From positions 1 through 25,758 of the IMG/VR virus record IMGVR_UViG_3300024344_000112: a stretch of 25,758 nucleotides of DNA, one strand, 5' to 3'. A model generated the notes under the pieces. It did not search any database. It saw nothing but the letters and a program-made list of their open reading frames with translations, and had not been told where the DNA came from. Positions 3,132-25,755 of this stretch are shown here, piece by piece (the first letter of the stretch is position 1; each line of letters starts with the position of its first letter). Source of the stretch: a virus. Position numbers and translations under genes: made by a program.

Positions 3132-4186
3132 TTGAGCACCCAAATTACGACAGCCTTTAGTCAGCAGTTCAGTACCAATATCCAGATGCTGTCACAGCAG
3201 AAGGGTAGCTTGTTGCGGAATGCCGTTAGTGAAGAAAGTGTCACTGGCGAGAAAGCATTCTTTGACCAGGTAGATTAATTCCTGCCTAGTTGGGTGGTGA
3301 CATCCAGCTGAAAACTTGTCAAATTCGGGGAAGGCTTAACTGCTAATCCCGAGCGAAGCCCGAAAGGGAACGTGTAGAGACTTGACGGCAAGCATCTCTA
3401 GTAGATGAAGAGAAAGTCCAGCGCACAAAGCCGTAAAAGGTGGCAACGAAAGTTGTAGTGTGATGAGGTTCAGCAACTGCTGTTAAAAGGACTAGTAGAC
3501 ACGCCGATACACCATTATCGGATACACCCCATTCTCGTAGAATGGTAACAATGGAATCATACGAATACGCAGATTTAATTGACGATCCCGACAAAGTGTC
3601 GATGTTAATTTCGCCTCAAAATTCGTATGCAAACGCCGCGGCCTATGCCATAGGAAGGTCGATTGATGATGCCATTATTACTGCTGCGCTGGGAACAGCA
3701 AGCACTGGTAAATCTGGCTCAACATCTACGAGTAACGCTAACACGGTAGCTGTGGGATCTCCCGCAGCTGGATTAACAGTTGCAAAATTGATTTCCTGTA
3801 AAAAGGTTTTCGATAATAATTCTGTCGATCCATCAATACCACGCTACATTGCGTGTGGACCTGAGCAGATCGAAGACCTGCTTAATACCACGCAAGTTAC
3901 AAGTTCTGATTACAATTCAGTCAAGGCACTTGTACAGGGTGATGTTGATACCTTTATGGGATTTAAGTTTATAACCTCAACTCGTTTGAATGTTGACGGC
4001 TCTTCCTATCGCAAAGTATTTGCGTGGGCTGAGGACGGCATCAAACTTGCGATGGGTCGTGACTTGATGACTAAAATTGAACCACGCGCAGATAAATCGT
4101 ATTCCACGCAAGTCTATGTGTGTGCCACCTTTGGTGCCACTCGCATGGAGGAAGCTAAGGTTTGCGAAATCTTGTGCAGCGAATAG
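3132..4186 (+). CDS. Major capsid protein, split by a group I intron: join(3132..3271,3466..4186)
   Basis: Coat protein of 286 residues encoded in two exons. Translation starts at TTG 3132 behind a very strong site (AGGAGGG, 3121-3127). Exon 1 encodes 46 codons plus two bases, ending in FFDQV. Unspliced, the frame reads Asp and stops at TAA 3276-3278. Exon 2 resumes at 3466 and gives GSATAVKRTSRHADTPLSDT, then PHSRRMVTMESYEYADLIDD, exactly the run expected after FDQ-I/V in this podovirus coat family. The family supplies HK97-fold coat subunits; here it follows the scaffold gene and precedes a small structural gene. The in-frame ATG at 3542 is internal, so an annotation starting there would lose the N-terminus. 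Exon phase (140 + 721 bases) is consistent only with the proposed junction. Confidence 0.9.
3272..3465 (+). ncRNA. Compact group I self-splicing intron (about 194 nt, no ORF)
   Basis: All core elements are present in order. P1: exon end gaccaggU (3264-3271) pairs with the guide gcctagtt (3284-3291), with U.G at the splice site and one C/A mismatch. P2: 3291-3296/3301-3306 with a GTGA loop. P3: cttgtc 3315-3320 with ggcaag 3387-3392. P4: ttcggg 3324-3329 with cccgag 3348-3353. P5: short, near 3333/3344. P6: CCC-GAAA-GGG 3359-3368. P7: gact 3379-3382 with agtc 3415-3418. P8: catct 3393-3397 with agatg 3403-3407. P9 region: cgcac 3422-3426 with gtgtg 3458-3462, enclosing CAAC-GAAA-GTTG. Terminal G is 3465. 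P10: CCU 3281-3283 with the first 3' exon bases AGG. The core strings (AAATTCGG, GTGTAGAGACT, GACGGCA, AGTCCA) resemble the Azoarcus-type tRNA introns (IC3). Confidence 0.92.
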
Positions 4187-9152: not shown

Positions 9153-11165
9153 ATGAAAGTTCCGATTTATCAAAACCAAGTATCGTTGCCAAAGACCAGT
9201 GGTGTGGGGCAACTATCGGTGCAAGCCAATCCACAGGCAATGAGTGCGGGCTCTCGCGCCCAGGCAAAATTTGGGCAGACGTTAGTTGCAGGTGGCATTA
9301 ACTGGTTTGAAGATTTTGTAAAACTTGATCAAGCACAAGATCAAGCAACTGAAACAAGTAAATTTGATAAATTTATCAGTCAGGCAACAACAGCTAATTT
9401 ACAAACACATCCTAGCGATTGGAAAAATAAAAAGAAACTTGACGCAAAGGGGAACCCTACACGTTATAATTATTTTGAATGGAGCGAAGTAATTAGAAAA
9501 AGTTTGGAGCTAAACGCAAAAGCGGCTTTAAGCAAGATCAAAAGTAAAGCTGTGCGAACCAGAATGGCACCTGTTTTTGCACAACGAATAAATAGCGCAC
9601 TCGTTACTATAAATGCAACGAACCGTGGGAAGTATGTAGATTTCTCAAAGAATGTCCTCAAGACAACTATGGGCGAAGAGCAAAAACGAATCGCAGAAAT
9701 GGCACCAGGCCCAGATAAAGAACAGGCCATCACTGATGCGCTTGGTACTTTTCGTCTTTTTAAATCAAAAAGGCCATTGATGGGGGATGCTTATTTTGGA
9801 GGCCAAGAACGTGATTTTTTAAGCACCATCGGCGCGTTGGGAATATCCTCAATGATGGATGGCATTGAAACGGCAGCTGACACAAAAATGTTAATAAGAA
9901 AACTTGATCAACCTAAAAAGGGCGATGATACTTTTGCCGATGTACAGCGTATTGACGCGGAAACAAAGCAAAAGTTTATTGATCGGTTGTCACGCCTAAG
10001 AACGTCATTAACAAATAAAGAAGCTAAAGAAACTGTTACTAAAATCCAACGTGATAAGGTTATAAAAACGAAATTGCGTGATGACACTGCTGATAGTTAC
10101 ACACAAAAAATCACCGCTATTCGAGACGCAGTTGCAAATAATCTTACTAAAGATAGCCCTGGTTGGCCTAAAGGAACAGACAATCGGCCATTGGTGATGC
10201 CGACTGTAAGTGAGATTGCTAGGAATAGAAATTTAGATCCAGAAGATAGTAAAAGAATCATAGAAGAAATAAATGGCGAAGATCAAATATTTAATCCAGC
10301 TGAGTTTCGATATTTACAGGATGAGATTGAGGAATCGGTTACCGATGACGATCTAAATAGAATTGAAGCAGATATCAAATCTAAGAAACGAAAAGGGTAT
10401 ATTGGGGGGAAGGCTTACGATCTTTTAAGAAGAGATATTACAGCTGCTAGGACAAAGAACCCAGAATTTTTAGATCGAAAACGGTATCGCACTTTACTTG
10501 CGGAAGCGATGAATAAAGCTAATGTAGATACATCCTCAAAAAATCCAAATGTAGGGATTGTAAATCGAAAAGGGCAACAAACTGTTAAAGCAAAATTTGG
10601 TGTTTTTGGCGTTGGGGCAATGAATTTTTTTGATGAGCAAATTGCTGAAGGCAAACAACCATCTGAAGCGTTTTGGACAACAGTTACAAAATTCCATCAA
10701 GATAAATTAACAATGATCAAAAGTACACTTACATCGATGGATAGTGTGTTTGCAAAAAGTGTTATTGAAGATCCTCAACAATTTTTAACTCCAGAAAATA
10801 TTAAATGGGCTAAAAAGTCCTTGCGTAACGCTCTTCTCAATAGTGGGGTTTTGACAAAAATTGAAGTAGATGCAGATCCAGATGAGCCGTTACCATCGCC
10901 AAGGGTAATGTCTGAAATGCAAAAAGATCGTGGCAGAGATAAATTACCATTGGCACAACGAATGACAATTCGCCGTTTATTTGATGAAGAACAAAAAATA
11001 AAGTTCTTAGAAGATTACGCAAACATACCTTTAGATGAACGTGGCTTACCCAATCAGATTCCAAAAGGTTCGATGAACACTTCTGCTGATAACACTAGTC
11101 TATTGGATGCGGCTACGGCTTGGGTAAAAGGAGTTTATAAAGCTGCAACGGAGGGGCCACAATGA
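9153..11165 (+). CDS. Internal virion protein (T7 gp15-like ejection protein)
   Basis: Protein of 670 residues beginning MKVPIYQNQVSLPKTSGVGQ, a common opening for gp15-type internal core proteins of marine podoviruses. It is rich in Lys, Asp and Asn, mostly helical and without membrane segments, as expected of a periplasm-spanning ejection-tube component. The early segment AGGINWFEDFVKLDQAQDQA is typical of the family; the rest (for example KFGVFGVGAMNFFDEQIAEG) gives no further domain that I recognise. Base composition is visibly more A-rich than in the head genes. It starts immediately after the gp14-like stop and overlaps the next gene by four bases (ATGA). Function follows mainly from order and start. 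Confidence 0.7.
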   Translation: MKVPIYQNQVSLPKTSGVGQLSVQANPQAMSAGSRAQAKFGQTLVAGGINWFEDFVKLDQAQDQATETSKFDKFISQATTANLQTHPSDWKNKKKLDAKGNPTRYNYFEWSEVIRKSLELNAKAALSKIKSKAVRTRMAPVFAQRINSALVTINATNRGKYVDFSKNVLKTTMGEEQKRIAEMAPGPDKEQAITDALGTFRLFKSKRPLMGDAYFGGQERDFLSTIGALGISSMMDGIETAADTKMLIRKLDQPKKGDDTFADVQRIDAETKQKFIDRLSRLRTSLTNKEAKETVTKIQRDKVIKTKLRDDTADSYTQKITAIRDAVANNLTKDSPGWPKGTDNRPLVMPTVSEIARNRNLDPEDSKRIIEEINGEDQIFNPAEFRYLQDEIEESVTDDDLNRIEADIKSKKRKGYIGGKAYDLLRRDITAARTKNPEFLDRKRYRTLLAEAMNKANVDTSSKNPNVGIVNRKGQQTVKAKFGVFGVGAMNFFDEQIAEGKQPSEAFWTTVTKFHQDKLTMIKSTLTSMDSVFAKSVIEDPQQFLTPENIKWAKKSLRNALLNSGVLTKIEVDADPDEPLPSPRVMSEMQKDRGRDKLPLAQRMTIRRLFDEEQKIKFLEDYANIPLDERGLPNQIPKGSMNTSADNTSLLDAATAWVKGVYKAATEGPQ

Positions 11166-14100
11166 CTGACCCGCTAACTCGATTAGCCGACAACCCTCTT
11201 GAATTTGCTGTAACAAAAGAACGCCATGCTGGTTACAAAAACTCAGAAGTTTATAAAGGTTTGGAAGAACAGGGTATCGATCCTATTTACGCCTGGTATC
11301 AAGATAAAGTACCAGCTGGTGAACATGACGATATAGATGCATTTGATGCATGGGCACCGCCGCCTGGCAGAAATCCAAATGCTCAAACACAAGAGAAAGG
11401 CACAATACCAGAAAGTGATCTGGTAAACCCAGAAACGTCATATGGTAAAGATATGCGGCAAGCTGGTGCGATAATGGTAAATTATCTTCGCAATAAAACG
11501 CCACAAAGACCTGTCGGGTTTGTGGGAAATTCTCCAACACCAGGCCAAGTTGCTAACATTGTTGATAGTGTGTCTACAACATCAGGTATTCCAACATCAG
11601 CATTGTCTAGTCTTGATAAGATGAGTGACAAAGATCATGGACAATTCATGCTCGAATTTTTAGGGCAGAATGAACACAACATGAGTTTTGGTGCTGGCGT
11701 GTGGCTCGATACAGATAATATGCCGCCAGAAGTTCTAGCCGCGCTTGCGGGCAGTATAGAACTTTATGATCAATTACCAACATTTAGCTGGAGCGGTTCG
11801 GGGCGTTTGGTCAAAGGTGTGTTGGGTGATCTTTCAACGTATGTAGGCTTATCAAGTTTAGCTTTTGTAAAAAATCTGTTGGCAGGTGGATCAAAGCAAA
11901 TCGGTAAAGGGTTCCTGCGTGACCGAATTTTGAAGAAGCTATATGGATCTGCTTTTGTTGGCGTTGAAGGTTCTGGCTACGCAGCCATGATGGATCTGTT
12001 TAAGCAAAAAGCTGAAGCTGGAAACAAGCCTTTTGTCTATAATAAAGAACGCGGTGCACTAGCTGCGGGGATGGGTTTTGCAGCTGGTGGAGCTCTCACA
12101 GCTGCTATGGTTAATCCTGATTTGATTGCCAAAGGTGTGAAGCTAGTAGGTAAGAAGGCTATTAATATTGCTGATAGTTTTATTGGTAATGGCACTGCCC
12201 TCAGAATGTTTGCTGGCCCAATGTCTGAAACAGCTGACAAGGCAATGTTAAGCCAGGCAAAAAAAATGGAGGGTGCTGGATCAGATCGTAATGCTATTTG
12301 GGAAGAGACAGGCTGGTTTAGAGATAAGGATAAAAAATGGAAATACGAAATCTCTGATAGAGATGCTGAGTTTGATTTTCAAGAATTAAAAGGCACACAA
12401 AATGTTGAGCTCAATAAAGCTCTAAATCACAAAGAGCTATTTAAGGCTTACCCTTGGTTGGAAAATACGCCAATTGGAAAAAAGTTTATGGGTAGTACAT
12501 TAGGAACTTTTAATCGTGATAATAAAAATATTTCTGTTTCTCCTGTTTCAGATGATCCGCTGTCTACAGTCCTTCACGAAATTCAACACGCAATACAAGA
12601 GCATGAAGGATTTGCTAAAGGGGCAAGTCCAACGAAGTTTTATTTAAGTGATTCAGCAAGAGAACTTACAGAAGACGAATTAGATATTATGAAAGCTTGG
12701 CGTTCCTGGGCAGAGTTAAAAAATGGCAACCCCAGCGCATCGTATGAAAAATGGGAAATGGATTACAAAGAAAGTGGCGGCTCAGTTCCTTTTGACCTTT
12801 CCAAACTTCCTACCCATCAAGAGCAAATAGATGATCTAATTGAGGGAGAACGTGTTTATTCGGGTGTTTTAGAAAGAGCAGACTATCCTGATATAGCTTA
12901 CCATTTAACGCCAGGTGAAGTTGAGGCTAGGAATGTTCAAGCACGCAAAAATATGAAGCCTCTATCAAGGGCTGAAGTGCCGCCCTGGGAAACAATCGAT
13001 GTTAATGAGAGCGATATTTTACCAACTAAAACTGACTCCTGGGCTACAATTAACACTCCTCTATCTACTGGGCCAAGAGTGGAACACGCAATACCAACTG
13101 AGGCTGATAATCCAAACAGCATTATTAATATGGTTTATAATACTGATGATAGTGTTCCAATGGCCCCTATCAATGCGCCTCGAAAAAGATGGACAAAAGC
13201 TGTTTTGGGTAAGGTTATGGATCAACAGGCACGGCAAGCTGGTCGCGTTGTAAAAGAATACAATGATAAAAGCCTTGAGACTATTTCTAATACTATCGCT
13301 AATGAAGCAATCGCTGCTTTAAATCGAGAAGGCAATGCTAGTAATTGGTATAATTCAAAAATAAAAGAAATGAACGAGGTGCTGCAAGAAATACACCCTG
13401 AGCTTGTTCCTGGTTCGACTGATGAAGGTGCATTCAAAATAGCCTTGGCAATTACGAGTAACGGCTCAACTGTTGATAGTAATATGAGGGCAGCAGAACA
13501 CATATATCGGGTCTTCAAAAAGACAGGAAAATTCCCAACAGACCTAAAAAGCTTAACTAAAGATGTTGGAGGATTTGGAAAAGAGAGCCAAACACTTGTT
13601 TTGCAGATGCAACGTGCAAACAATATTATTGATGAAATGGGGCCAGACAAATTTATTGAATTTTTAAATACTAAATTTACAACTAAAGATCTTAACAAGA
13701 TGGGGTATAAACTTAGTGGCGAAGGTGCAAACTACGAGACTTTTGGGTCTGCTATCTTTGGGCCAAAAATTGGTGGTGGGTTTTATCAAAACCTAAGAGG
13801 TAACTTTGACCCCGTTACTTTTGATCGATGGTGGATGGCCAGCTGGGGAAGATGGACAGGTAATTCTTTAATTAAGACCCCGAAGGAAACACAGGCAAAA
13901 CGAATAGCGAAATTTAGAGAATTGTCTGGGTCAAAATCAAAGACAGACAAAGCATTAATTAATCAGGCCAACAAAATATTCAACGTGTATAAAAAAAATA
14001 ACTTTCAACCACGCACAGAATTAAACAAGGCAGCACAACGAGTGGCCGAAGGTGCACAGGACGTAATGAGAGAGCAACCAAATAACTCAAGTGAGCGTAA

Positions 14101-19312: not shown

Positions 19313-19468
19313 ATGTCAGATTATAAAATAATTAGAAGAGTTGAATATCCTTCGATGCACGATTTCCTTGAAGCATTTCACGATGAGAAAAAAGGCGATG
19401 ACACGAAGATGACAGCTTGGGTTGCCGCGTGCGACAAAGTCAAAACTGATTTTCCAAAGGGAGATTAG
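19313..19468 (+). CDS. Small hypothetical protein (51 residues)
   Basis: ATG 19313 lies behind GGAAAG (19304-19309). The product, MSDYKIIRRVEYPSMHDFLE followed by AFHDEKKGDDTKMTAWVAAC, is charged and lacks a membrane segment. I do not recognise a family. Position directly after fibre genes would suit a fibre-assembly chaperone, but that is only a guess. The frame fills the gap between fibre and lysis genes with normal spacing, which supports it as real. Confidence 0.55.
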   Translation: MSDYKIIRRVEYPSMHDFLEAFHDEKKGDDTKMTAWVAACDKVKTDFPKGD

Positions 19469-19476
19469 TTTTATAA

Positions 19477-19992
19477 ATGGTTGTTGCAGAAACTCTTGCA
19501 GTAATCGAGGGGATTGGCCTCGTCACCAAATCCGTTAGCCAAATAAAATCCGTTCTCCGTAAAAAAGATGCTCAACCAGATGAGCTGGCTGCACATATTG
19601 ATAACTTATTTAAAGCAGAAAATCAGATTGCGTCTAAGTCCCGTAATCCTGTGACCGAAAAATGGAACAAGATGCTTGGCAAAAAGCTAGGGGATAATTC
19701 AGATCCAACCTCGATGCAAGCTGTGGTATCTTACAAGATACAACAACGCCAGGCTGATGAGGCGATAGCTGAAGTAAAAAATTTAATTAATCGGCGGTTC
19801 CCTGGTGCGTGGGATGAGATATTGATAGAGCGTCAAGATCGAATTGAAAAAGCTAAAACTGCGAAAGCGCGTTACCGTGAAAAAGAAAAAGAGAAATGGG
19901 ATAAAATTTTTCAAATCGCTAGAAATATTTTAATCCTTAGTCTTGGGCTAGGCGCAATATTAATTTTTATCATTATGTCGAAGGTTAAGTGA
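19477..19992 (+). CDS. C-terminally membrane-anchored coiled-coil protein
   Basis: Protein of 171 residues. N-terminal amphipathic region AETLAVIEGIGLVTKSVSQI, charged helical centre with QQRQADEAIAEVKNLINRRF, a long Lys/Glu/Arg helix, and a C-terminal membrane segment (about residues 148-168, ILILSLGLGAILIFIIM) followed by SKVK. Proteins of this build are common just before the endolysin in marine podoviruses; their function is not known to me. A role in lysis or membrane association is inferred. The putative Shine-Dalgarno GGGAG lies rather far upstream (about 13 bases). The stop TGA overlaps the next ATG (TGATG). Confidence 0.6.
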   Translation: MVVAETLAVIEGIGLVTKSVSQIKSVLRKKDAQPDELAAHIDNLFKAENQIASKSRNPVTEKWNKMLGKKLGDNSDPTSMQAVVSYKIQQRQADEAIAEVKNLINRRFPGAWDEILIERQDRIEKAKTAKARYREKEKEKWDKIFQIARNILILSLGLGAILIFIIMSKVK

Positions 19993-20336
19993 TGGAATTT
20001 ACGATCCGCGATCTCGCCCAATTTGGTGCCATAGCTGTCTCGCTTGTTGGGGCATTCATCACCGCTCGTATCCAGATCAAGCAGCTGATGGAAAAGATGG
20101 CTGAACACGATAAGATTTTTACCCGTGTAGACCATCGTCTCGATGAAGCCGAATCCGCCAGGGCAGTATTAGATAGTCGTGTCTCTATTTTGTCTGAGAT
20201 CAATTCTGTAAGTGCTTTGGAAAAAAGAAATGTTCAGCTGGCTGAGATAGCCGCTACGCAAAAGATGATGGTATCTGAAATTGATTTGCTGCGTAAATTA
20301 CACAATGGCAGCCATCCTCCTGTGACCGAAAAATGA
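19992..20336 (+). CDS. N-terminally anchored coiled-coil protein (holin- or spanin-like)
   Basis: Protein of 114 residues starting at ATG 19992, which overlaps the upstream TGA. One membrane segment at about residues 8-26 (AQFGAIAVSLVGAFITARI) is followed by a long charged coiled coil (IKQLMEKMAEHDKIFTRVDH and onwards). This is the topology of inner-membrane spanins and also of small class-III-type holins; no Rz-specific motif decides between them. It overlaps the endolysin start by four bases (ATGA), so it belongs to the lysis cassette. Confidence 0.55.
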   Translation: MEFTIRDLAQFGAIAVSLVGAFITARIQIKQLMEKMAEHDKIFTRVDHRLDEAESARAVLDSRVSILSEINSVSALEKRNVQLAEIAATQKMMVSEIDLLRKLHNGSHPPVTEK

Positions 20337-20713
20337 GCACGCTTTATAAACACTACGATGACATCAGCCCCGCCGATTGGCGGGGTAAATATTTTAAGCC
20401 CCATGAGCTGGCGTGCAAAGGGACGGGCGAGCTCCTGGTTAGTGAGAAGCTGCTCGATGCCCTGGATCTTTTACGCAACCGATTAGGCCGCCCATTAAAA
20501 CTGAGCAGCTGCTACAGATCGGCCTATCACAATGCCAGGGTTGGGGGTGCAGTTAAATCATGTCACCGTTTGGGGATCGCAGCAGATCTTCCTCTAGCGG
20601 GTCACAATAAATCAGAGTTGATCGAGCTGGCACGCAGCTGCGGCTTCACAGGTTTTGGAATTAGCTATCGTACATTTGTTCATGTCGATCTAGGACGAAG
20701 GAGATCTTGGTAA
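20333..20713 (+). CDS. Endolysin, M15 (D-Ala-D-Ala carboxypeptidase-type) peptidase
   Basis: Protein of 126 residues, a minimal single-domain Peptidase_M15_3-type enzyme. Signature elements in order are FKPHELACKGTGELLVSEKL, LSSCYRSAYHNARVGGAVKS, then CHRLGIAADL and FVHVDLG. Zinc ligands are expected to be His78, Asp85 and His117, with the S/C-H-x-x-G-x-A-x-D signature intact. Such enzymes cleave peptide bonds in the peptidoglycan stem or cross-link at the end of infection. No signal peptide is present, so export depends on a holin; a holin-like gene follows with overlapping TAATG. The region at codons 12-18 contains a strong GC hairpin. Confidence 0.88.
   Translation: MSTLYKHYDDISPADWRGKYFKPHELACKGTGELLVSEKLLDALDLLRNRLGRPLKLSSCYRSAYHNARVGGAVKSCHRLGIAADLPLAGHNKSELIELARSCGFTGFGISYRTFVHVDLGRRRSW
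20368..20385. repeat. GC-rich hairpin in the endolysin gene, inverted copy of the late terminator core
   Basis: CCCCGCC-GATT-GGCGGGG, a perfect 7-bp stem with a four-base loop, about 35 bases after the endolysin start and followed by an AT-rich stretch (TAAATATTTT). Its inner 16 bases are the exact reverse complement of the core of the terminator at 14475-14490. It could attenuate transcription or translation of the endolysin. Confidence 0.6.
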
Positions 20714-21953: not shown

Positions 21954-22844
21954 ATGAATAACTCAAATGTAGTCCACGGCCTCCCAATCAACGGCAAGCA
22001 CAATGGCCGCCCAGCCATCGAGGCATTAGCGGGTGGATCGTTCTTAGCTTCTTATTGGTATGCCCGTCCAGGCAGCAATAAAATTGGCAAGCAAGTTGAC
22101 CAAGCAATTGAGTTGGTTGGCGAAGATGAGATCTTCTTTTTAGACAACGGTGCATTCACTGCATTCAAAAATGGTATCTCGATTGCAGACGATACCGCTT
22201 ATTTGGATGGCTACTTCGATTGGGCAGCTGATGTTTTAAAACGCTGCCCCCAGGCTGTCGCAATTATCCCTGATGTTATTGATGGCGATACAGCTGACAA
22301 CCGCCGCATGATCTCTGAGGCGATTGGATCTGGCATCGATACAGAGCGATTGGTTCCAGTTTGGCATCTTCACGAAGACTTTGATTATTTGAAAGATCTT
22401 GTTGAAGAATTTAATCACATCGCAATTGGATCATCTGGCGATTACTGGAAAGTAAACTCCACAGATTGGAAATGCCGTATCGCCAAGATGTTTGGTTTCC
22501 TTGACGGCTTGTTTGAGGACGATGAGTTCGCAGCTGCCTACGTTAAGCCTCGCATTCATATGTTACGCGGTATCGCAGTTATGGATGCCTGGGAGTTCGA
22601 TTCAGCAGACTCAGTAAACATCGCAGTAAATCATAATGCACAAAAAAAGCGTGGCGAAGATTTGGATGCTTTTAGAGCTCGCGTTGAGACAAAAGCAAAA
22701 AACGGTCACGGCTATGCAGATCCTAAATTGGGAACGATTGCTGAGATCGCAGAAGAGATCGCAGCTTGGAAATTAAAGCGCATCGCAGAACGCGATGCCG
22801 CCCCAGCTGAAGACAACATCATTAATTTTAAAGCAGCGGCATAA
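21954..22844 (+). CDS. TGT/DpdA-like TIM-barrel protein (7-deazaguanine transglycosylase superfamily)
   Basis: Protein of 296 residues. The motif order is that of the tRNA-guanine transglycosylase / DpdA superfamily: FFLDNGAFTAF (61-71, matching the substrate-pocket 'DSGGFQ' position of TGT), IPDVIDGD (105-112), PVWHLHE (135-141), IAIGSSG (156-162), IHMLRGIA (201-208) and EFDSADSVN (214-222, the place of the catalytic Asp). The Cys/His zinc site of classical TGT is absent. Family members exchange guanine for 7-deazaguanines in tRNA or, for DpdA, in DNA. No preQ0 synthesis gene is present here. It is the first gene after the attP promoter, co-transcribed with the integrase. A more distant TIM-barrel role remains possible. 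Confidence 0.55.
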   Translation: MNNSNVVHGLPINGKHNGRPAIEALAGGSFLASYWYARPGSNKIGKQVDQAIELVGEDEIFFLDNGAFTAFKNGISIADDTAYLDGYFDWAADVLKRCPQAVAIIPDVIDGDTADNRRMISEAIGSGIDTERLVPVWHLHEDFDYLKDLVEEFNHIAIGSSGDYWKVNSTDWKCRIAKMFGFLDGLFEDDEFAAAYVKPRIHMLRGIAVMDAWEFDSADSVNIAVNHNAQKKRGEDLDAFRARVETKAKNGHGYADPKLGTIAEIAEEIAAWKLKRIAERDAAPAEDNIINFKAAA

Positions 22845-22855
22845 GGAGAATTAAA

Positions 22856-23287
22856 ATGAATAACTCAGCTTACATTAACGAAAAGGGCCAGCTTACTATT
22901 AATTTTAATGGTGAGATTTCAATCGTAAGAAAGACTGCAAAAAGCAGTGCAAATTACGCAACAGTATCTGTGACAAGTTTTAGTGATGGGAGTTTTGATG
23001 CAATTCCCAATCGCCCAAATTCATCGGGCATTGGCAAAGCATCTGAAAAGGCGGGCGGCGAAGTTTTGTACAAACGCATGGTCAATAAAATATCTGGAGA
23101 AAAAGTTTATCGAGAATGTCGCACTGAGGAAGATTTGGAAATAGCGAAGCGTCAGGGCGAAGTTAGCGATAACGAAGTCGTTTTAAAAAAACCTGCCCCA
23201 CGTTGGTTTCGCATTGGGGGGCCAGTTTACTACAAGCAACCTAAATTTGAAGTTCATGTTTTACCAATTAACAGAGGGGAGAATTAA
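22856..23287 (+). CDS. Hypothetical protein of the lysogeny operon
   Basis: Protein of 143 residues starting at ATG 22856 with the repeated AAGGAGAATTAAA leader. The N-terminal half is Ser/Asn-rich and beta-like (GQLTINFNGEISIVRKTAKS). The C-terminal half has YKRMVNKISGEKVYRECRTE and APRWFRIGGPVYYKQPKFEV. I do not recognise a family. There is no membrane segment or HTH. It lies between the TGT-like gene and the integrase gene, one base before the integrase ATG, so it is probably translated with both. A regulatory or modification-linked job is possible but unsupported. Confidence 0.65.
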   Translation: MNNSAYINEKGQLTINFNGEISIVRKTAKSSANYATVSVTSFSDGSFDAIPNRPNSSGIGKASEKAGGEVLYKRMVNKISGEKVYRECRTEEDLEIAKRQGEVSDNEVVLKKPAPRWFRIGGPVYYKQPKFEVHVLPINRGEN

Positions 23288-23288
23288 A

Positions 23289-24620
23289 ATGAAAATCAAA
23301 AACGTAGTTCCAAAACAATGTAAATATGCAAAAGCTAAAGGCTGGGCCAGCTGGCTTGTAAATACAAAACCATCTGGCGTTGCGAAGCTTGGTAATAAAG
23401 GCGAGAAGAAATATTTTGAAACTCGCGAAGAGGCCGAAGCATATGCAGCTGAGGTTAACTCAGCGCAGCTGCACAATGGCGGTGCCAGCTCTTCAAAGGG
23501 CGGCACTGTTGGTGACGCAATTAAGAAAGTCGTGACAAGCTACGAGCGCAGAAGAGATGAGGGCAATGTCGGGTTCACAGCTGTGCGCGGTTACATTATA
23601 AATGCCGAATGCTGGAAAGAGCATATCGGGCATATCAAATGTTCGGATCTAAACCATCTCCAAATCCAATCAGTTCTTGATGGCCCTTTTGGACATCTAT
23701 CGCGAACAACGAAAGATCGTAAATTAAAGCAACTTGTAAAAGTGTTAGAGCTTGGCCGTGCAAAAGGTTGGATACCTTTGAATGCCAGGAACGTAGCGGA
23801 GCGCGGTGAGTATTCCGAAACGAGTGTCGTCTTGTTTGAAAATGTCCACAATAAGACTGAGGACGAAATTCGTTTTGGCCCACGCAAAGAGCCGTTTGAT
23901 GCACAGCTGATTAAAGATTTGTGCAATCATATGTTGTGGCAAGATGAACGCGTTAATAAGGAACGTGAGCGCATAGCGCAAAAAAAGCATGGAAAAATCG
24001 GTCACAACCAACCACCAAAACCTATCAAATATCGAAACTTTGGCACGATCCTAAGTTTTGCGTTTCAAACAGGTTTACGTTTTTCTGAACAGGCCGCTCT
24101 GCGCTGGAGCGATATCGATCTTGATGCCAAAGAGATTACAGTTAGCTGTGCCCTTCGCATCATTGGTGAAGGTGACCAGGTTGGCGTTGGCACAACAAAG
24201 GCAAAATTACTTCGCAAAGATACCTCGATTGGATCGGGGATTCGATATGTGCCAATTACGCCAGCTCTTCACAAATTACTGGTAGAGTGGAAATTGAAAT
24301 CGAACTTTTCAAAAGACGAAGATTTGGTTTTCCCTACAAATGTCGGCACCTGGAATAAAACTAGCCACAACTGGCGTAGAAGAATAATGCATGTAGCTTG
24401 TGATGCTGTGGGTATAGATAGAATTAGATGGCACGATGCCAGGCACTTTTTTGCAAGTATGTTATTAAATGCCTATAGCAATAATTGGGGAAAGATTGCA
24501 GATCTACTTGGTCACGATTCTACAGATTTTACCCGCCGCCAGTATGGCCATTGGGTTAAGAAGACTAAGGCTGACAAACAAGCGGATGCTGACCAGCTGG
24601 GTGATGCTATGGGGTTCTAA
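23289..24620 (+). CDS. int: Tyrosine-type phage integrase
   Basis: Protein of 443 residues from ATG 23289, chosen because it has the repeated GGAGAATTAAA leader; an upstream in-frame ATG (23214) lies inside the previous gene. N-terminal arm-binding region about 1-70 (WASWLVNTKPSGVAKLG, KYFETREEAEAYA), core-binding domain about 70-190, catalytic domain about 245-430. Catalytic residues: Arg264 (TGLRFSEQAALRW), His382 and Arg385 (WHDARHFFAS), His409 (LGH) and nucleophile Tyr419 (RRQYGHW). It would recombine attP with a host tRNA-Arg gene. A linker of about 55 residues between domains contains GKIGHNQPPK, a motif seen at the start of small phage proteins. Its stop overlaps that of the convergent early operon. 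Confidence 0.93.
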   Translation: MKIKNVVPKQCKYAKAKGWASWLVNTKPSGVAKLGNKGEKKYFETREEAEAYAAEVNSAQLHNGGASSSKGGTVGDAIKKVVTSYERRRDEGNVGFTAVRGYIINAECWKEHIGHIKCSDLNHLQIQSVLDGPFGHLSRTTKDRKLKQLVKVLELGRAKGWIPLNARNVAERGEYSETSVVLFENVHNKTEDEIRFGPRKEPFDAQLIKDLCNHMLWQDERVNKERERIAQKKHGKIGHNQPPKPIKYRNFGTILSFAFQTGLRFSEQAALRWSDIDLDAKEITVSCALRIIGEGDQVGVGTTKAKLLRKDTSIGSGIRYVPITPALHKLLVEWKLKSNFSKDEDLVFPTNVGTWNKTSHNWRRRIMHVACDAVGIDRIRWHDARHFFASMLLNAYSNNWGKIADLLGHDSTDFTRRQYGHWVKKTKADKQADADQLGDAMGF

Positions 24621-25401: not shown

Positions 25402-25755
25402 TTATACTCCTTTATTTGTTAATTGGTGATAGCGTTTTTTAAATGCATCAGCCACCGCCTCATAACGTGGTGGATTGCTTGTTTTTAATTCTCCCATTGT
25501 TTGTTTCGTAACAGTCTTCCATGCCATATGTTCGCCTAGATGCTTGTGTTTATTAAAACCGTCAATCTGCTCTTGAGCCCAATCATCTGTTTTGGTATCC
25601 CGCTTTAAAAACTCAGGGATAACTTCAGCAGCTGGTGCAGGTGGATCGACTTTTTTAGGTGGATCTGGAACCTGGGGTGGCGGCTTCTCTGTCTCAGCAT
25701 CTGGCGGCAGATCTTCGCCCGCATAGATGTAATGGCCCAGGCCATGATAGGCCAT
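25402..25755 (-). CDS. Hypothetical early protein (5' end near or beyond window edge)
   Basis: Protein of 117 residues if it starts at the ATG at 25755. The frame is open to the right edge, so it may be longer. It begins MAYHGLGHYIYAGEDLPPDA, has a Pro/Lys-rich middle (KPPPQVPDPPKKVDPPAPAA), and a helical C-terminus (DWAQEQIDGFNKHKHLGEHM, ERYEAVADAFKKRY-like RYEAVADAFKKRYHQL). I recognise no family. The long proline-rich linker suggests two short segments tethered flexibly. Three bases separate its stop from the ATG of the SSB-like gene, consistent with one leftward operon. Confidence 0.55.
   Translation of the reverse strand: MAYHGLGHYIYAGEDLPPDAETEKPPPQVPDPPKKVDPPAPAAEVIPEFLKRDTKTDDWAQEQIDGFNKHKHLGEHMAWKTVTKQTMGELKTSNPPRYEAVADAFKKRYHQLTNKGV

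Follow-up and report, generated by a model that had tools for sequence, protein, structure and literature searches.

Group I introns in phage protein genes are usually of subgroup IA, whose hallmark is a P7.1 or P7.1/P7.2 insertion between helices P7 and P3. Group I introns that lack an endonuclease are generally regarded as immobile and as passed on chiefly by vertical descent. For the psbA intron of cyanophages, spread presumably depends on a nuclease outside the intron, the free-standing F-CphI. Capsid-gene group I introns are known from mycobacteriophage LittleE and lactococcal phage Tuc2009, and splicing has been shown for the LittleE intron, which is 819 bp long and includes an HNH endonuclease (PMC3706429). 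According to a 2014 review, every phage intron known up to that time lay in a protein gene, despite the many phage tRNA genes (PMC3984707); a survey of the Bastillevirinae found 45 intervening sequences (PMC11878797). Here we analyze an intron in the major capsid protein (MCP) gene of a 25.8-kb podovirus fragment, IMG/VR record IMGVR_UViG_3300024344_000112 (25,758 nt, analyzed in full and referred to below as the window). We consider it very probable that this is a self-splicing intron of the bacterial tRNA (IC3) type, one of a family that lacks open reading frames (ORFs) and spreads at fixed sites at the DNA level without an intron-encoded endonuclease.

An intron in the major capsid protein gene

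The only RNA family found in an Rfam scan of the window is the group I intron (RF00028, Intron_gpI), at 3262-3430 (56 bits, E 6.6e-12; gathering score 50). Splice sites between U3271 and A3272 and between G3465 and A3466 delimit a 194-nt insert at 3272-3465, the removal of which joins the exon frames exactly. Exon 1 (3132-3271; this and all other features of the gene and intron are on the plus strand) starts with TTG after AGGAGG and ends in AGGU, and exon 2 spans 3466-4186. The spliced frame is open across the junction (GEKAFFDQV followed by GSATAVKRTSRHADTP) and encodes 286 residues identified as a major head protein (phrog_3437, E 5.5e-88). Among cultured phages, this MCP is closest to that of HTVC010P-type pelagiphages (HTVC035P, 64% identity), and in 25 of 25 records among the matches listed the MCP is in a single, uninterrupted piece. 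The same site is empty in a close relative, locus L006.

The first-pass annotation had read 3272-3465 as a group I intron in a capsid gene, and the Rfam match, the intact spliced frame, the covarying structure described below and the empty site in L006 all bear this out. It had also seen no homing endonuclease, and the ORF listing contains no endonuclease ORF within the 194-nt insert. Judged from its sequence, the intron is predicted to be active. It would excise itself from late MCP mRNA by guanosine-initiated two-step splicing, and joining of CAGGU to AGGUUC would then yield the full capsid protein.

Fold and splice sites

The proposed structure (P1 to P9, with P7 as a pseudoknot, 50 pairs in all) was tested on 45 diverse MCP introns. 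In this alignment 93.3% of cells are paired, 28 of the 50 pairs show double-sided (compensatory) changes, and the covariation score is 0.399, as against 0.132 when shuffled and 0.043-0.088 when slid. Given pairs formed and compensated to this extent across relatives, together with the empty site in L006, we conclude that the insert is real and not a chance resemblance.

In P1 (3268-3287), exonic AGGU (3268-3271) and the first intron bases AG (3272-3273) pair with the guide CUGCCU (3282-3287). The splice-site pair, U3271.G3284 in the window, is U.G in 45 of 45 aligned introns. The exonic half of P1 is GGU, with GCC in the guide, in all aligned introns except that of L350, where exonic GAU is compensated by GUC in the guide. 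P10 would form between CCU (3281-3283) and AGG at the start of exon 2 (3466-3468). Splice mapping demanded a T before the intron and a G at its end, and P10 was not demanded. With a few junctions moved by hand to the register directly after GGU ahead of the count, all 78 introns form P10 pairs 1 and 2 and 75 of the 78 form pair 3, by A-U, G-U, G-C and C-G pairs. This level of pairing was never reached in 5000 shuffles, and the same holds when only the 38 unique combinations are used. A 3' splice site at 3468 would also be in frame; 3465 is preferred because P10 with AGG fits it and the relatives concur.

P2 (3288-3309) is a 9-bp hairpin with a GUGA loop and compensatory changes in 8 of 9 pairs. 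P3 (3315-3320 with 3387-3392) encloses P4, P5 and P6, is 100% paired and is compensated in 5 of 6 pairs. P4 is formed by 3325-3329 and 3348-3352, P5 by 3333-3335 and 3342-3344, and the P6/P6a hairpin (3353-3373) has a GAAA loop. P7, the guanosine-site helix (3377 and 3379-3382 with 3415-3419), is followed by a 4-nt J7/3, and all five of its pairs are invariant in the 45 introns. P8 (3393-3407) is a hairpin paired in the same alignment. The P9 region (3424-3460) includes a GAAA-capped P9b with 4 of 4 pairs compensated; 72% of P9 cells are paired, and P9 and P9a as drawn are less well supported than the other helices. The core strings singled out in the first-pass annotation (AAATTCGG, GTGTAGAGACT, GACGGCA and AGTCCA) are all present, as are the GNRA-type caps that it saw on P2, P6 and P9. 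The identity of the intron and its splice sites are established by these computations.

Relationship to tRNA introns

We built a covariance model, R1, from 26 aligned cellular (bacterial) tRNA-gene introns only, using a hand-made, nested structure whose core is satisfied by nearly all 26 rows. The window intron scores 132.8 bits with R1 (E 7.5e-46). Among other phage IC3-like introns, a tRNA intron of a 735-kb phage scores 198.8 bits and that of Pelagibacter phage HTVC120P 146.3 bits, and among the T4 introns nrdD scores 15.1 bits and nrdB and td give no match. The general Rfam model gives the opposite order (105.3 bits for T4 nrdD, 56 for the window intron), so the ranking crosses over. The closest DNA relatives in the phage collection are the capsid-gene introns of HTVC120P and of an uncultured Chosvirus, and the intron in the tRNA-Leu(UAA) anticodon loop of the 735-kb phage.

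In every one of the 45 aligned MCP introns the spacer between P7 and P3 measures 4 nt; thus, the P7.1/P7.2 insertion typical of IA is found in none of them. P5abc is also absent, P5 being a short hairpin. We reject IA classification of the window intron because of the R1 scores and the missing P7.1/P7.2. The first-pass annotation had noted the tRNA-type resemblance and suggested subgroup classification as a check; the tRNA-intron-only model places the window intron with IC3, not IA, and the tRNA-Leu relative agrees with this. The assignment to the bacterial tRNA (IC3) type is strongly supported.

The window intron is like bacterial tRNA IC3 introns (cyanobacterial tRNA-Leu, Azoarcus tRNA-Ile, Agrobacterium tRNA-Arg) in core sequence, in the layout of P2, P6 and P9, in its GNRA loops, and in having no P5abc, P7.1/P7.2 or ORF. 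Unlike them, it lies in a phage protein gene and has its exonic P1 cut down to GGU. T4 td, nrdB and nrdD are also phage protein-gene group I introns, but they are IA and have homing endonuclease ORFs. The LittleE intron shares the capsid-gene location, whereas the MCP introns described here are far from its length, at 188-227 nt except for one doubtful 251, and lack its endonuclease.

The first-pass annotation regarded the intron as exceptionally compact. At 194 nt it is indeed below the length of about 205 nt for the Azoarcus tRNA-Ile intron, and it is shorter than most of the cellular tRNA introns found here (190-331 nt, one doubtful call aside). However, its siblings are as short as 188 nt and a 180-nt intron lies in another MCP type, so the idea of a record-small intron was dropped. 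A length of 194 nt is ordinary for the family.

A family of introns at seven sites of one gene

A 17-base core pattern matched at least 119 stretches in IMG/VR. After duplicates were merged, the matches listed fall into 35 MCP-gene introns, 57 introns of tRNA genes recognized by ARAGORN, and a further 13. By their flanks, two of the 13 are pelagiphage MCP introns and one is in a metallophosphoesterase-like gene; the remainder resemble complete or partial tRNA introns, and some of them contain an ORF. With further scans and splice mapping added to the core pattern, 81 distinct introns were mapped at seven sites of the same MCP gene, named S1 (the site in the window), S1b and S2 to S6. S5, in which the intron separates NTV from KALVQGD, holds 56 of them. 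These introns, together with those in a second MCP type, are the other marine phage capsid-gene occurrences that the first-pass annotation had proposed looking for.

Six genes have two mapped introns each (L273 depends on a doubtful mapping), and up to three group I introns occur per MCP gene if extra ones found by Rfam are included. These extras score low with R1 (17-40 bits) and probably belong to other subgroups: L010 343-565; L141 2232-2456 and 1137-1351; L146 1277-1487 and 2363-2607; L181 1467-1679; L219 4367-4579; and L313 1238-1448. In 121 scanned records, the group I matches of each carrier are within about 1.3 kb of one another and, for the subset that was mapped, inside the MCP gene in every case. 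About 15 of 80 loci found via the MCP C-terminus carry introns, but this set was similarity-ranked and includes near-duplicates, and therefore gives no estimate of prevalence.

Related introns occur in a second MCP type. In cultured HTVC120P (L480, MH598807) GenBank annotates the capsid region at 19433-20607 as two separate capsid proteins; the split is explained by an intron of 197 nt (19609-19805), the removal of which gives a single uninterrupted protein with FPV joined to MGR. Like the window intron, this intron is IC3, ORF-less and in the MCP gene of a marine podovirus, but it is at a different site in a different MCP type and groups with phage tRNA introns (approximately unbiased (AU) test not significant). 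The shortest mapped intron, IC3-like and 180 nt long (L105, 10379-10558), is in another MCP type, where it joins NHYDV to RSTYSSEMGR. With L105 mapped to this junction, between NHYDV and RS, we dropped a shared ATGGGAAGA target for pelagiphage introns at two sites. L105 has a second group I intron downstream (11070-11245).

Very small introns of the tRNA type are frequent in the tRNA genes of phages, across many isotypes (L004, L093, L118, L127, L133 and others, including the 735-kb phage). Two tRNA introns (L126, L171) have an HNH-like ORF inside or adjoining, and may be mobile forms of these tRNA-type introns. Group I intron-like R1 matches of 43 and 57 bits in Rhizobium phage RHph_N3_13 (L485) and Vibrio phage VPMCC14 (L486) coincide with split annotations of ribonucleotide reductase and DNA polymerase.

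A tree was made from 149 introns (cellular and phage tRNA introns and MCP introns, with IA rows not included). The MCP introns of HTVC010P type cluster together (88/91) amid tRNA introns, in a group that also contains two phage tRNA introns and one cellular tRNA intron. The window intron is nested among cellular and phage tRNA introns with moderate support, consistent with the tRNA-intron affinity for which the first-pass annotation had proposed a phylogeny. S5 introns are dispersed through the MCP group and the other sites are nested, so that the site labels need 10 changes for seven sites. S1 is sister to S1b (100/99), and these sites are only 4 nt apart. The pelagiphage MCP introns are elsewhere, near phage tRNA introns. 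The IC3 MCP introns probably derive from tRNA introns.

Probable transfer between phages

Across about 1.8 kb, five substitutions separate the empty L006 allele from the filled L007 allele, and four of them lie at -21, -9, -6 and +1 from the junction. All four are in a tract where L007 equals the window, and outside this tract L007 and the window are widely divergent. In L007 the tract reaches further upstream of the insertion point (21-31 nt) than downstream of it (1-6 nt). At S5, the differences that are within 20 nt of the site number 66 of 188 in filled-empty pairs, 23 of 161 in empty-empty pairs and 18 of 209 in filled-filled pairs. Where S5 alleles are at least 0.95 identical distally, their identity up to 25 nt from the site is 0.785 in filled-empty, 0.954 in empty-empty and 0.966 in filled-filled pairs. 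Two loci, L231 and L278, have an identical intron by string comparison and a 96% identical near flank in backgrounds that are 73.5% identical.

Clustering of differences at the junction between near-identical filled and empty alleles points to exon co-conversion, as expected of DNA-level transfer. Thus, the intron appears to be transferred horizontally as DNA at fixed sites, with about 20-30 nt of flanking exon replaced along with it. The mechanism would be DNA recombination between co-infecting phages, and the window intron would be one member of an ORF-less IC3 radiation in the MCP gene of HTVC010P-type marine podoviruses. The first-pass annotation had left open how the intron reached a capsid gene; horizontal transfer at its own site, together with flanking exon, answers this in part. 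The IC3 relationship, the multiple sites and the co-conversion pattern are computational observations, and the route to new sites can only be inferred.

Several points weigh against this account. The three highest identity bins contain no more than 4, 3 and 7 S5 filled-empty pairs, the S5 pairs are non-independent, with some empty alleles shared, and selection for folding, acting on the exon flanks, could imitate some of the exon tract. Deep support in the tree is moderate, and a single clade of MCP introns survives AU tests whether the pelagiphage introns are included (p 0.115) or left out (p 0.399), so the number of invasions is unsure. Accordingly, neither a separate invasion by the pelagiphage MCP introns (p 0.115) nor derivation of the two phage tRNA introns from MCP introns (p 0.399) is secured, and we claim only the tRNA-type relationship and repeated changes of site, with no count of invasions. 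Finally, the lack of GIY-YIG and HNH (PF01844) endonucleases in all of 39 records, nearly all intron-bearing, and of HNH_3 in all but four speaks for this account, but most of these records are incomplete and the search covered these three endonuclease families.

The window also encodes a Sak-type single-strand annealing protein match (PF06378) at 25402-25755 on the minus strand, which is a candidate recombinase for intron transfer. Other products of the window are a queuine tRNA-ribosyltransferase-like protein (21954-22844) and, close downstream of that, an integrase (23214-24620).

Alternative explanations

Exon co-conversion is expected of collaborative homing, in which a free-standing endonuclease of the same or a co-infecting phage acts in trans, and also of plain recombination. 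The short tract of L007, longer 5' than 3', is the remnant expected of a cut near the site followed by repair. However, HNH_3 occurs in just 4 of the same 39 mostly incomplete records (in G045 about 1.6 kb upstream of the nearest intron), no tested family is consistently present in carriers, and a nuclease specific for one site leaves seven sites unexplained. Whereas the F-CphI/psbA system has its external nuclease, a partner for the MCP introns was not identified in the three families searched, and we regard collaborative homing as somewhat unlikely. Ordinary short-tract phage recombination, for example by an annealing protein, with neither cutting enzyme nor drive, is a live alternative given the Sak-type match in the window; in its favor are also the shortness of the tract and the conservation of the MCP gene among the phages. 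On its own it leaves the intron-centred differences in several filled-empty pairs and the frequent occupancy of S5 unexplained, and we regard it, too, as somewhat unlikely. Movement between MCP sites might begin with reverse splicing into MCP mRNA, which is abundant, and be completed by reverse transcription and recombination. The target needs just GGU (3 bp of P1), and both the sister introns at S1 and S1b and the 10 site changes are in keeping with this. Insertion into recipient RNA would leave the donor exon behind, unlike what is seen in L006 and L007, although that is a fixed-site case; co-conversion argues against reverse splicing for fixed-site spread and does not address entry to new sites. 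We judge this route unlikely. A broader scenario, doubtful in our view, is an endonuclease-free tRNA-type lineage specialised on the capsid gene of abundant marine podoviruses, which would enter new GGU sites of this gene by reverse splicing into its mRNA, the most abundant late transcript, pass from phage to phage through short-tract DNA conversion, and undergo exchange with phage tRNA introns.

Two other readings concern the nature of the insert. It is highly improbable that it is an unspliced assembly error, pseudogene or translational bypass element, since the L007 allele recurs in a second locus (L246), the same intron type is in cultured HTVC120P, and both the structure and P10 covary. 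The prevalence of IA in phage protein genes would favor an IA-type intron that resembles IC3 by chance, but the R1 score, the cross-over with T4 nrdD and the 4-nt J7/3 without P7.1/P7.2 in 45 of 45 introns make this scarcely credible. Fixed-site transfer of a self-splicing IC3 intron as DNA is the explanation that we prefer.

Significance

No description of an IC3 radiation in MCP genes came up in the literature searched, from which subscription journals were largely missing, and priority is not established; nor did that literature yield anything on the smallest group I introns or on HTVC120P. Split capsid annotations, of which cultured HTVC120P is one example, conceal such introns. tRNA-type introns are common in phage tRNA genes, in contrast to the 2014 statement (PMC3984707). 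The predicted ribozymes of 188-200 nt with a 3-bp exonic P1 could serve as minimal models for splicing. The larger finding is an endonuclease-free intron group concentrated in one gene, with signs of recent horizontal transfer. An essential gene of ocean phages that comes in both filled and empty alleles, across seven positions, makes endonuclease-free intron mobility testable.
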